DNA of 64,000 bases from Jannaschia helgolandensis (lineage in GTDB: Bacteria; Pseudomonadota; Alphaproteobacteria; Rhodobacterales; Rhodobacteraceae): contig NZ_FNZQ01000003.1 in the NCBI RefSeq assembly GCF_900109285.1, positions 1-64,000 on the forward strand, written 5' to 3'. The notes under the pieces are model-generated. The model saw only the letters and a list, made by a program, of their open reading frames with translations, was not told the DNA's origin and did not search any database. Below are positions 23,004 to 32,398 of the stretch, piece by piece. The number at the start of each line of letters is the position of its first letter. Within the stretch, counting starts at the first letter, position 1. A program made the position numbers and the translations under genes.

Positions 23004-23044
23004 TGAATGGTGCGTATGCTTCATACCAAGGGAGGAACTTCAAC

Positions 23045-29084: not shown

Positions 29085-31505
29085 ATGAATGATTTTGACG
29101 ATTCCGACGCCTTTGAATCCGCCAGCCTGTCGTCGCGCGCGATGGCGGCCCGGCCCGCGCCCTACATGGATGGGCTGAACCCGGCGCAATTGCTGGCTGT
29201 CAACACGCTCGACGGTCCGGTTCTGATGCTGGCCGGGGCGGGCACGGGCAAAACCCGCGCCCTGACCGCGCGAATTGCGCATCTTATGGCATCGGGGCAG
29301 GCGCGTCCGAACGAAATCCTCGCCGTGACCTTTACCAACAAGGCCGCGCGCGAAATGCGCGAACGGGTCGGTGGCATGATGGGACAGGTGGCCGAAGGCA
29401 TGCCGTGGCTTGGCACCTTCCATTCGGTCTGCGTCAAGCTGCTGCGCCGTCACGCCGAACTGGTCGGGCGCAAGATCCCGGTGAACGGCGAGGTGCGCGA
29501 CCTGCACCTGAAATCCAACTTCACAATCCTCGACACCGACGATCAGCTACGCCTGCTCAAACAGCTCATCATCGCCACCGGGATCGACGAGAAGAAATGG
29601 CCACCCCGGATGCTGGCGGGCATCATTGACCATTGGAAAAACCGCGCCTGGACCCCCGACAAGGTCCCCGCGCATGAGGCGGAGGCCTTCAACGGCAAGG
29701 GGGTGGTGCTCTACCGCGAATATCAGGATCGCCTGCTGACCCTGAACGCCGTCGATTTCGGCGACCTGTTGCTGCATGTCATCGGCATCTTTCAGGCCCA
29801 TGACGACATTCTGGCCAAATACCGCGCATGGTTCAAATACATCCTCGTCGACGAATATCAGGATACGAACGTCGCCCAGTACATGTGGCTGCGGCTGCTC
29901 GCCGGGGGGCACCGCAACATCTGCTGCGTCGGCGACGACGACCAATCCATCTATGGCTGGCGCGGGGCCGAGGTCGGCAATATCCTGCGCTTCGAGAAGG
30001 ACTTCGAGGGTGCGGAAATCATCCGCCTCGAACAGAACTACCGCTCCACCCCCCACATCCTCGCCGCCGCCTCCGCGGTGATCGCGGGCAACCAGGGACG
30101 TTTGGGCAAGACCCTCTGGACCGAAGCAGAGGAGGGCGAAAAGGTCTGCCTGATCGGGCACTGGGACGGGGACGAGGAAGCGCGTTGGATCGGTGAAGAC
30201 GCCGAAAGCCTCGCGCGCGGGACACGCGGTCTCGACCCGTTTTCGCTCGATGACATGGCGATTCTGCTGCGCGCCTCGCACCAGATGCGCGCCTTTGAAG
30301 ACCGCTTCCTGACCATCGGTCTGCCCTACCGCGTCATCGGCGGACCACGCTTCTACGAGCGTCTCGAAATCCGTGATGCGATGGCCTATTTCCGCGTCGT
30401 CGTGTCACCGGACGACGATCTGGCGTTCGAACGCGTCGTCAATACGCCCAAACGCGGCTTGGGCGACAAGGCCCAACAGACGATTCAGGTCATGGCCCGG
30501 ACGAACGGCGTGTCCTTGCTGGAAGGCGCGCGGCTTTGTGTCTTGTCCAAGACCATCGGCGGCAAGGGCGGCAAGGCGCTGGACGAACTCGTCAAAGGCT
30601 TTGATCGCTGGCGGTCGGAACTGCTCGACGGACGCGACCACATCCATCTGGCCGAGGAGATTCTCGACGAATCCGGCTATACCACCTTCTGGCAGAACGA
30701 AAAGACGCCCGAAGCCCCCGGTCGCCTCGAAAACCTCAAGGAACTGGTCAAGGCGCTGGAGGGGTTCGAGAACCTGCAAGGTTTCCTCGAACACGTCTCG
30801 CTGATCATGGACAACGAACAATCCCAGTCCGAGCCGATGATCACCCTGATGACCCTGCACGGTGCCAAGGGGCTTGAATTTCCGGTCGTCTACTTGCCCG
30901 GATGGGAAGACGGGTTGTTTCCATCGCAACGCTCGATGGACGAGTCGGGCGTCAAGGGACTGGAGGAGGAGCGGCGGCTGGCCTACGTCGGCATCACCCG
31001 CGCCGAAGAAATCTGCACGATCAGCTTTGCCGCCAACCGCCGCGTCTATGGCCAGTGGCAATCGGCATTACCATCGCGTTTCATCGACGAACTACCCGCC
31101 GAGCACGTCGAGGTGCTGACACCCCCCGGTCTCTACGGTGGCGGTTTCGGCACGAACACGATGGCCGAGGCACAACACGATGCAATGTCCGGCGGCGTCG
31201 AATCTGACATGCCCGCCAAGGCCGCCAAGGCCGACGTCTATAACTCGCCGGGCTGGCGACGCCTGCAATCGAACACGGCGCGCCCGACGATGCAGCCATC
31301 GGAGGCCAGGAACCTGACCATCGATGCCAACGCCGTTTCGGCCTTCGCCGTCGATGATCGCGTGTTCCACACCAAGTTCGGCTATGGCGCTGTGATTGCC
31401 ATCGAAGGCGACAAGCTGGAGGTCACGTTCGACAAGGCCGGGACGAAGAAGATTGTCGGTCGGTTCCTGATGGGAGCTGATCAGGCCGGAGATGTGCCGT
31501 TTTGA
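29085..31505 (+). CDS. uvrD: UvrD/PcrA-type ATP-dependent DNA helicase
   Basis: The 806-residue SF1A helicase has the expected motifs in order: Q-motif LNPAQLLAV, Walker A LAGAGTGKTRAL (about residue 50), motif Ia AVTFTNKAAREM, motif II DEYQDTN, motif III GDDDQSIYGWRGA, motif IV EQNYRST, motif V TLMTLHGAKGLEFPVV and motif VI VGITRAEE. The C-terminus carries the Tudor-like segment VFHTKFGYGAVIAIEG, known in PcrA/UvrD to contact RNA polymerase. It unwinds DNA 3' to 5' in nucleotide excision and mismatch repair. About 25 extra N-terminal residues precede the helicase core. Downstream it faces the CcsR-like array on the opposite strand. Confidence 0.97.
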   Translation: MNDFDDSDAFESASLSSRAMAARPAPYMDGLNPAQLLAVNTLDGPVLMLAGAGTGKTRALTARIAHLMASGQARPNEILAVTFTNKAAREMRERVGGMMGQVAEGMPWLGTFHSVCVKLLRRHAELVGRKIPVNGEVRDLHLKSNFTILDTDDQLRLLKQLIIATGIDEKKWPPRMLAGIIDHWKNRAWTPDKVPAHEAEAFNGKGVVLYREYQDRLLTLNAVDFGDLLLHVIGIFQAHDDILAKYRAWFKYILVDEYQDTNVAQYMWLRLLAGGHRNICCVGDDDQSIYGWRGAEVGNILRFEKDFEGAEIIRLEQNYRSTPHILAAASAVIAGNQGRLGKTLWTEAEEGEKVCLIGHWDGDEEARWIGEDAESLARGTRGLDPFSLDDMAILLRASHQMRAFEDRFLTIGLPYRVIGGPRFYERLEIRDAMAYFRVVVSPDDDLAFERVVNTPKRGLGDKAQQTIQVMARTNGVSLLEGARLCVLSKTIGGKGGKALDELVKGFDRWRSELLDGRDHIHLAEEILDESGYTTFWQNEKTPEAPGRLENLKELVKALEGFENLQGFLEHVSLIMDNEQSQSEPMITLMTLHGAKGLEFPVVYLPGWEDGLFPSQRSMDESGVKGLEEERRLAYVGITRAEEICTISFAANRRVYGQWQSALPSRFIDELPAEHVEVLTPPGLYGGGFGTNTMAEAQHDAMSGGVESDMPAKAAKADVYNSPGWRRLQSNTARPTMQPSEARNLTIDANAVSAFAVDDRVFHTKFGYGAVIAIEGDKLEVTFDKAGTKKIVGRFLMGADQAGDVPF

Positions 31506-31582
31506 CAGGAGGACACTTGCATCAGATCGGGATGGGTATTCGGGTCTGATCGTAAAATGGGGCCCACGGAAGTATCCAGAAC

Positions 31583-31627
31583 CAAAAAAACCGCGATGCC
31601 CAAGGGAGGAAGGGCATCGCGGTTTCT
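31583..31627 (-). terminator. intrinsic terminator formed by the last CcsR-like hairpin
   Basis: On the minus strand AAACCGCGATGCCC and GGGCATCGCGGTTT pair perfectly around TTCCTCCCTT, followed by a run of seven T (plus-strand A run 31584-31590). It would end the ccaF1-array transcript while leaving the last loop motif exposed. Confidence 0.9.
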
Positions 31628-31800
31628 GTTTTGGCAACCGCCTCGTGGGAGGACGGGGCGTCGCCGGTTCGATCGCAGCGCCATCGGGAGGAAACGCGCC
31701 TGGATCGAATGTCTGTCACCGAACACGCGCTGGGCGGGAACGGTTCCGTAATTTCTGCGAAGGCTCCGGCGACGCTCCAATCGGGAGGAAATGAGCGCCA
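31583..31800 (-). ncRNA. CcsR-like hairpins 5 to 8 with one decayed copy
   Basis: Hairpin 5 (about 31769-31800), a decayed copy (about 31719-31747), hairpin 6 (about 31672-31706), hairpin 7 (about 31634-31671) and hairpin 8 (31587-31625) follow. Loops 5, 6 and 7 carry UUCCUCCC or GUCCUCCC; the decayed loop reads UUCCCGCCC. How these are cut into individual RNAs cannot be read from sequence. Confidence 0.65.
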
Positions 31801-31811
31801 CCGGTCCTTCA

Positions 31812-31885
31812 CGTCGCCCGTTCCCCAAGGGAGGAGGAGAGGTTCGGGCGGGTCCCCGGCCTAAGGGAGGAGGAAGACCGGGAAT
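31812..31885 (-). ncRNA. CcsR-like unit, hairpins 3 and 4
   Basis: Hairpin 3 (31853-31882) pairs CCCGGUCU with AGGCCGGG (one mismatch) around UCCUCCUCCCUU. Hairpin 4 (31815-31850) pairs CGCCCG with CGGGCG and GG with CC around UCUCCUCCUCCCUU. These two loops carry the longest form of the motif, CCUCCUCCC. Confidence 0.75.
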
Positions 31886-31892
31886 AGGTGCG

Positions 31893-31970
31893 ACGGTCGG
31901 ATCAAGGGAGGAAGAGATCGCCGCCGCGTATCCCGTATCGCCCAAGGGAGGAGAGGGCGATCCGGGTATT
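31893..31970 (-). ncRNA. CcsR-like unit, hairpins 1 and 2
   Basis: The first hairpin (about 31931-31967) pairs AUCGCCC with GGGCGAU around UCUCCUCCCUU, with a second stem layer after one mismatch. The second (about 31894-31925) pairs GAUC with GAUC and an outer GC stem with bulges around UCUUCCUCCCUU. Two such hairpins per RNA is the known CcsR layout. Confidence 0.75.
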
Positions 31971-31972
31971 CT

Positions 31973-32194
31973 TTACTTGCCGTAGGCCGCTTCCAGAGCG
32001 ACGCCGCGGATCATCGAGCGGCTCAGGCCCAGATCTGCCAGGTCACGGTTCGACAGGGCGGCAAGCTCGGACACGGTGTTGCGATAGGTGCGCCATTTGC
32101 TATAATCTGCACGTGCAGTTTCGATGCGGGTGATCAGACGGTCACGCAGCGTGCTGGCGATGGCACCGGTATTGCCATATGTGGTATAAGCCAT
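31973..32194 (-). CDS. ccaF1: DUF1127 family protein, CcaF1-like
   Basis: The 73-residue protein has the DUF1127 core at its C-terminus: SELAALSNRDLADLGLSRSM followed by IRGVALEAAYGK. The N-terminal half is helical and basic (TLRDRLITRIETARADYSKW). In Rhodobacter sphaeroides the equivalent CcaF1 is encoded just ahead of CcsR RNAs and acts as an RNA-binding protein affecting their maturation and turnover; DUF1127 proteins elsewhere bind RNA as well. The stop lies three bases from the start of the hairpin array, on the same strand. The ATG at 32194 is preceded by AAGAGGAAG inside a palindrome that may regulate its translation. Confidence 0.9.
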   Translation of the reverse strand: MAYTTYGNTGAIASTLRDRLITRIETARADYSKWRTYRNTVSELAALSNRDLADLGLSRSMIRGVALEAAYGK

Positions 32195-32235: not shown

Positions 32236-32398
32236 CCGGCCCCATTGCCGGTCGGCTTGTTGTTTCGTTGATGGGAAGATGGGGCGGTTGCTGCGCATGC
32301 ACAATACTCAGAACATTCAATGCCGCTATGCAGCATTTGCATAGCGAAAGAGCGTCATTACCGCAGATATCTGCCGGTATCGCGAAACCTTTATACCT

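Follow-up and report, generated by a model that had tools for sequence, protein, structure and literature searches.

Among the closest known counterparts of the locus analyzed here is ccaF1-CcsR of Rhodobacter sphaeroides, in which a DUF1127 gene is followed by co-directional stem-loops with anti-Shine-Dalgarno (anti-SD) sequences and by a terminator (PMC10253847, PMC3927594). According to the sections of PMC10253847 on which we draw, CcaF1 binds RNA and acts on the transcript of ccaF1-CcsR, RNase E cuts the CcsR RNAs into separate RNAs, and C1 metabolism and stress defence are reported as the processes on which these RNAs act; R. sphaeroides is also reported not to survive the loss of ccaF1. 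The same sections give the name CIN1 to DUF1127 genes that come with CcsR-like RNAs, and for the R. sphaeroides locus they name RpoHI and RpoHII and no LysR regulator. Similar elements have been described as SmelA075 and SmelA099, with CCUCCUCCC loops, as RSs0680a, with two stem-loops (PMC3927594), and as the cuckoo motif, with 2–4 hairpins (PMC4504443). Because there are four CcsR RNAs and two stem-loops are reported for RSs0680a, the papers imply that R. sphaeroides probably has eight hairpins (four RNAs of two hairpins each), the number in the array described below.

Anti-SD motifs are also found in the AbcR small RNAs, where they are unpaired and aimed at transporter solute-binding mRNAs (PMC7143759). 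In Agrobacterium, VtlR binds the promoters of abcR1, vrsA and atu1667 and activates abcR1, and more than 250 genes are changed in a vtlR mutant; atu1667, whose role is reported as unknown, is an orthologue of BAB1_0914 and BAB2_0512 (PMC7486931, as cited in part), which PMC12595884 compares with DUF1127 genes. The circuit has diverged in S. meliloti, where AbcR is not controlled by LsrB (PMC7486931).

Organization and folding of the hairpin array

The window, a stretch of 64,000 nucleotides of the Jannaschia helgolandensis genome, carries on its minus strand a ccaF1-like gene for a 73-aa DUF1127 protein (31973..32194; PF06568, E 1e-13), which is probably RNA-binding. Among 94 stretches encoding relatives, the closest belongs to Jannaschia marina (L001), with 78% identity. 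The stop codon of the gene ends at 31973 and the hairpins run from 31966 to 31586, so that the array lies directly behind the gene on the same strand, as the earlier note had described. The minus strand contains eight CCTCCC sites from 31604 to 31951, and every one of them is placed at the loop of a separate stem. Hairpins 1 (31932..31966), 2 (31890..31924), 3 (31853..31884), 4 (31815..31850) and 5 (31766..31804, with a stem reaching 31812-31757) were delimited by folding and cross-species comparison. Hairpins 6 (31668..31709) and 7 (31639..31660) align poorly between species and have weak consensus folds. Hairpin 8 (31586..31627), in which 96 of 96 cells are paired across six species, is an intrinsic terminator of 16 pairs followed by a T-run in the DNA, which bears out the proposal that the last hairpin doubles as a U-run terminator; a terminator pattern scanner did not list it, probably because the scanner limits loops to 8 bases.

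All eight loops contain UCCUCCC, and two of the eight have the full nonamer CCUCCUCCC, which occurs 7 times in L001 and 2 times in the window locus. An unconstrained RNA fold of 31580-31975 forms all eight hairpins at -184.3 kcal/mol (z -6.7), and none of 100 shuffles was as stable. In this fold the motif UCCUCCC is fully unpaired in hairpins 1, 2, 3, 4, 6 and 8, while hairpin 5 has two inner pairs within the motif and hairpin 7 pairs its first U. Against the 8 hairpins of the array, 2000 dinucleotide shuffles averaged 0.43 and never exceeded 4 and, with the array masked, no other 395-base stretch of the window has more than 2. The central claim of the earlier note, eight tandem hairpins exposing UCCUCCC in their loops, is thus upheld far above the level of shuffled sequence.

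Distances between successive hairpins are 41, 38, 36, 49, 97, 40 and 42 bases. A regular spacing of about 40 bases, as had been claimed, therefore describes most gaps and fails for one, the 97 bases between hairpins 5 and 6, and two-hairpin units are not clearly visible in the spacing. The long gap includes a 56-base spacer without an anti-SD loop (31710..31765, minus strand), and a spacer of 50–60 bases with no common fold occupies the matching place in all six species. A ninth, degenerate hairpin was considered for this gap and is not claimed, because the gap folds differently in each of the six species.

We examined selection on the array in a set consisting of the window and five Jannaschia loci, L001-L005, each of which has eight hairpins at matching positions (counts in other loci are 9 in L006, 10 in L059 and 7 in L014). 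Aligned hairpin by hairpin, 451 of 490 cells are paired; of the 85 consensus pairs, 30 have changed on both sides, 17 on one and 38 are unchanged. Alignment is poor for hairpins 6 and 7, whose consensus folds are weak, and for L005 in hairpin 2. Paired changes at 30 of 85 positions in six species agree with the idea that the stems vary around a fixed loop and that selection acts on loop and fold, and the loop is conserved in related genomes, the property on whose absence the earlier note would have given up its reading. The minus strand also has an open frame of 154 codons (31481-31945), which could in principle encode a repeat protein. The frame runs through the terminator, however, the hairpin spacings are mostly not multiples of three and the stems covary; on the spacing and the covariation we rejected a coding function, to which we attach almost no credence.

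Folding does not by itself assign a strand: the reverse complement of the array likewise folds into hairpins, with GGA in their loops, and CsrB-like sponges are RNAs that bind a CsrA/RsmA-type protein through GGA loops. If the plus strand were the functional RNA, its GGGAGGA loops could act as such a sponge. Wobble pairs argue otherwise. When G-U and A-C pairs were detected on equal terms, minus-strand stems contained 412 G-U against 169 A-C over 549 hairpins, and locus by locus G-U was more frequent in 66 of 77, less frequent in 7 and equal in 4; a detector favouring G-U gave the same outcome. Because G-U exceeds A-C in the stems, the minus strand is most likely the functional RNA. In addition, a U-run follows the last hairpin on the minus strand only, and the arrays sit behind a co-directional DUF1127 gene. 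A plus-strand sponge, rejected on the G-U excess, is in our estimate very improbable.

Gene order, co-directional anti-SD stem-loops and terminator match the published R. sphaeroides locus. The assignment to the ccaF1-CcsR (CIN1/cuckoo) kind, a known type of small-RNA locus, is supported by this comparison of sequences, as the earlier note had held. A covariance-model search gave a divided answer, in that ar14 and CcsR1 are among the best matches on the array and both fall below their gathering thresholds. At gathering, Rfam found two tRNAs elsewhere in the whole window and nothing at the array; for Rfam, then, the region is indeed left empty, as the earlier note expected of gene callers. Under loose limits, ar14 (RF02344; gathering 58.8) matched the locus at 44.6 (E 9e-7), 36.4 and 31.4 bits, and the three best ar14 places in the genome are all here; CcsR1 (RF02791; gathering 65.3) matched at 25.0 (E 1e-3) and 21.7 bits; and ar7 (29.4 bits) and some unrelated families also matched, all below gathering. 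Because these scores fail the thresholds, the locus is not a formal member of RF02791 or RF02344. The same holds for many relatives. In 32 scanned loci, which include the window's own locus (L081) and the second DUF1127 gene of this genome (L082), ar14 reached gathering in 6 (L021, L023, L058, L066, L073 and L080) and CcsR1 in none, though most have arrays. Rfam at its thresholds thus misses most of these arrays, and the threshold or seed of the CcsR1 model may be too narrow.

Arrays in related genomes

We retained the best 80 of the 94 stretches in genome contigs that encode DUF1127 relatives. Behind the DUF1127 gene, 74 of these 80 loci have a chain of two or more hairpins, with at least 5 hairpins in 53, at least 8 in 29 and at least 10 in 20; the longest chain has 23 (L023, Loktanella atrilutea). 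A stray hairpin may inflate some of these counts; in the window, for example, the scanner chains a ninth site past the terminator. Five of the 80 loci have no hairpin and one has a single hairpin. The same scan of the best 80 of 94 detected no chain of at least two on the reverse strand (0/80) or in upstream DNA (0/80).

An array pattern defined as three TCCTCCC with gaps of 20–50 bases, and independent of the DUF1127 search, was present in 81 of 198 family genomes, each from another genus, compared with 6 for the reversed pattern. Thirty of the loci found in this way were taken and 27 were readable; a DUF1127-like motif lies just upstream in 23 of the 27, and a VtlR-like box (up to 3 mismatches, 700 bases) in 21. 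L191, L196 and L198, with two hairpins only and no DUF1127 motif, may be chance matches. L194 (G567) has 24 hairpins at 427-1586 after orientation, arranged in near-identical repeats of about 140 bases, and because the repeats are so alike this array apparently arose by recent tandem growth. A class-wide search recovered the pattern in 3 of 5 family genomes. Outside the family it was at control level (8 of 380 genomes versus 8 of 385 for the reversed pattern), and none of the readable loci there had more than one hairpin or a DUF1127 motif.

Not every DUF1127 gene is followed by an array. A plasmid tblastn search with the DUF1127 protein gave 206 matching records, of which eight loci were examined, five from Rhizobiales and three from Rhodobacterales. 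Within these 8 of 206, L221, L222, L223 and L226 (Rhizobiales) have groups of hairpins near the DUF1127 gene, L227 (Rhizobiales) has one close hairpin, the Paracoccus plasmid L225 has five hairpins behind the gene, and the Rhodobacterales loci L224 and L228 show no array at the gene. This genome has two DUF1127 genes, and the other one, L142 (G000:C5:1250500-1252500), lacks an array and is preceded by a box-like ATGCAAAAAGCACATAGCGGACATT. A further arrangement was seen in Mesorhizobium amorphae L080 (1456-2130), where two tandem DUF1127 genes, themselves preceded by a VtlR-like box, lie ahead of two three-hairpin modules that both scored as ar14.

Chains of 2 to 23 hairpins in 74 of the best 80 of 94 loci, and the 24 hairpins of L194 in near-identical repeats, are what one would expect of an array that stays unprocessed as one multivalent RNA, soaking up SD sites with hairpin number as the dose. 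R. sphaeroides CcsR RNAs are, however, cut separately by RNase E (PMC10253847, sections cited), and we regard an uncut array as unlikely. The role of the array could instead be local, as a 3′ UTR that tunes, protects or terminates the DUF1127 mRNA or as a decoy for the DUF1127 protein, given that the last hairpin is a terminator and that CcaF1 binds RNA and acts on the ccaF1-CcsR transcript (PMC10253847). Against a loop that matters only in its own transcript, eight stems built around one shared core sequence in the loop, and chain lengths from 2 to 23, favour many partners, and the CcsR RNAs act on C1 metabolism and stress defence in the cited sections of the same paper; a purely local role is, in our judgement, improbable. 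We prefer a processed array acting on other mRNAs.

The upstream box and the VtlR homologue

A 26-base block upstream of the DUF1127 gene, ATGCAAATGCTGCATAGCGGCATTGA (32317..32342, minus strand), is well kept in an alignment of 8 promoter regions and constitutes a VtlR/LsrB-type box. It matches 13 of the 15 positions of the VtlR motif printed in PMC12595884, which is a Brucella motif; a shorter printed form, GCAT-N3-TG-N3-T, fits apart from GG in place of TG. Within the 400 bases ahead of the match start, the VtlR motif was found with up to 3 mismatches in 58, and with up to 2 in 40, of the best 80 of 94 loci, compared with 0 of 78 in control windows 700–1100 upstream and 1 of 78 at 1050–1450 downstream. 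Every one of the 58 belongs to the 74 array loci of this set, of which 16 have no box at up to 3 mismatches, and the box is present in none of the six arrayless loci. This locus has the genome's single mismatch-free copy of a relaxed box. The 15-base box alone did not yield a genome-wide regulon, which was rejected at 79 sites with up to 2 mismatches versus 23 for the reversed pattern. On plasmids, 2 of the 8 loci examined out of 206 have a box with up to 3 mismatches, upstream in L222 and only downstream of the gene start in L223, and the Paracoccus array L225 has none at this limit; because of these counts we confine the generality of the box to chromosomal Rhodobacterales loci.

The genome encodes a VtlR homologue, a 302-aa LysR protein at about C8:321983-322891 with 40% identity over 294 columns to the query, a Mesorhizobium amorphae LysR gene directly downstream of trxB and near an ar15 match. 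A forward search of this genome with the C-terminal part of the query gave 4.4e-41 (next 8.4e-23), and the reverse search returned the Mesorhizobium gene at 1.5e-73 (next 1.8e-40), making the two reciprocal best matches. Identification by trxB-vtlR synteny was abandoned, since trxB here adjoins Lrp-type and sulfate adenylyltransferase-like genes instead. To judge from the box and the homologue, a VtlR-like regulator may switch the array on. A limited literature search found no paper joining CcsR, LysR and Rhodobacter and, in titles and the starts of abstracts, none linking VtlR or LsrB to CcsR.

A weak candidate promoter, TTG-N17-CCCCAT (32279..32304, minus strand), was recognized in the 8-sequence promoter alignment, in which all 8 sequences share TTG and part of the second element unchanged. 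It may be RpoH-type, a label that rests partly on the wider RpoH consensus. The second element ends in CAT here, in contrast to the TAT that accompanies TTG in the reported R. sphaeroides rsp_0557 promoter (PMC10673084, section cited).

Candidate targets, proposed mechanism and known systems

The loop of hairpin 8 together with two stem bases has a 12-base complement, CCAAGGGAGGAA, of which the 3.56 Mb genome contains two exact copies, one in the array and one in the SD stretch (23026..23037, plus strand) of a candidate target gene with coding from 23045. This gene encodes a TRAP DctP solute-binding protein (PF03480 E 2.5e-42; NF037995 E 4.3e-26). Duplexes of the site with the loop strings of hairpins 1, 4, 5 and 8 have energies of -23.2, -23.2, -17.9 and -23.8 kcal/mol, values that exclude the cost of opening the stems. 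A search of 20 genus genomes yielded 25 homologous proteins in 19, including the gene itself and a paralogue, and GGGAGGA precedes the start in 21 of the 25 (20 of 24 without the gene itself) as counted by eye; it precedes 2 of 50 gene-like ORFs delimited in the window with a crude caller, one being the DctP gene. The longest complement reaches 12 bases in the gene and in one homologue and 10 in two others; the rest have 5 to 9, and in some of these it lies outside the SD. In the four closest homologues the lengths are 9, 6, 8 and 10. Strong SDs may have other causes, above all in transporter genes that are highly expressed, and the sequences therefore argue only moderately for solute-binding transporter mRNAs as targets.

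We think it quite probable that the locus is transcribed as a regulated unit of the ccaF1-CcsR (CIN1) kind, working as follows. Order, strand, fold, loop conservation, terminator, box and VtlR homologue are observed; the steps that connect them are predicted. A VtlR/LsrB-type LysR regulator, perhaps with an RpoH-type sigma factor, would activate the unit. One transcript would both code for the CcaF1-like protein and yield the anti-SD RNAs, the gene and the array being presumably co-transcribed. By analogy with R. sphaeroides, RNase E, helped by the DUF1127 protein, would cut it into RNAs of one to a few hairpins. The loops, which would copy the 3′ end of 16S rRNA, could then pair with strong GGGAGGA sites, and pairing at ribosome-binding sites would block translation starts. 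Transporter solute-binding proteins are the likeliest targets that can be named.

The locus adds one more genome to those with a known unit, a small RNA together with an RNA-binding protein. Novelty may lie in the comparison of relatives: the breadth of the arrays, a roughly tenfold range in hairpin number and the VtlR-like box. The box, the range of array lengths and the candidate target in the window are additions to the earlier note. Most arrays lie behind a box resembling that of a regulator whose study, as far as the cited sections describe it, has centred on Brucella, Agrobacterium and Sinorhizobium, which joins two questions, that of CcsR-type RNA control and that of how VtlR/LsrB reaches genes without a bound promoter. 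It is conceivable, if doubtful, that VtlR/LsrB of Rhodobacteraceae works largely through ccaF1-CcsR arrays: it would switch on one transcript whose hairpins repress mRNAs for transporters and metabolism, and the number of hairpins (2 to more than 20, changed by tandem growth and loss) would be an evolvable dose. On this reading, an RNA behind the DUF1127 target of Agrobacterium VtlR could partly explain why more than 250 genes change and few promoters are bound.

Compared with R. sphaeroides ccaF1-CcsR1-4, the locus shares the DUF1127 gene, the anti-SD stem-loops behind it and the terminator. It differs in its CcsR1 scores, which are below gathering, in a nonamer confined to two of the eight loops, in one gap of 97 bases and in a VtlR-type box, whereas RpoHI and RpoHII are named for R. 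sphaeroides in the sections cited. AbcR RNAs (ar15), as described in the cited sections, have anti-SD motifs in common with the array, but they comprise three stem-loops with two motifs and are encoded beside lsrB/vtlR, whereas the array lies behind a DUF1127 gene. Several hairpins with anti-SD loops are shared with ar14 and with SmelA075 and SmelA099 of Rhizobiales, which we infer to be the same RNAs; these have three or four hairpins compared with eight here. The cuckoo/CIN1 elements have the same combination of variable stems and a constant CCUCCUCCC-type loop; cuckoo is described, in the section cited, with 2–4 hairpins, in contrast to the eight of this locus and the 23–24 reached in its relatives.
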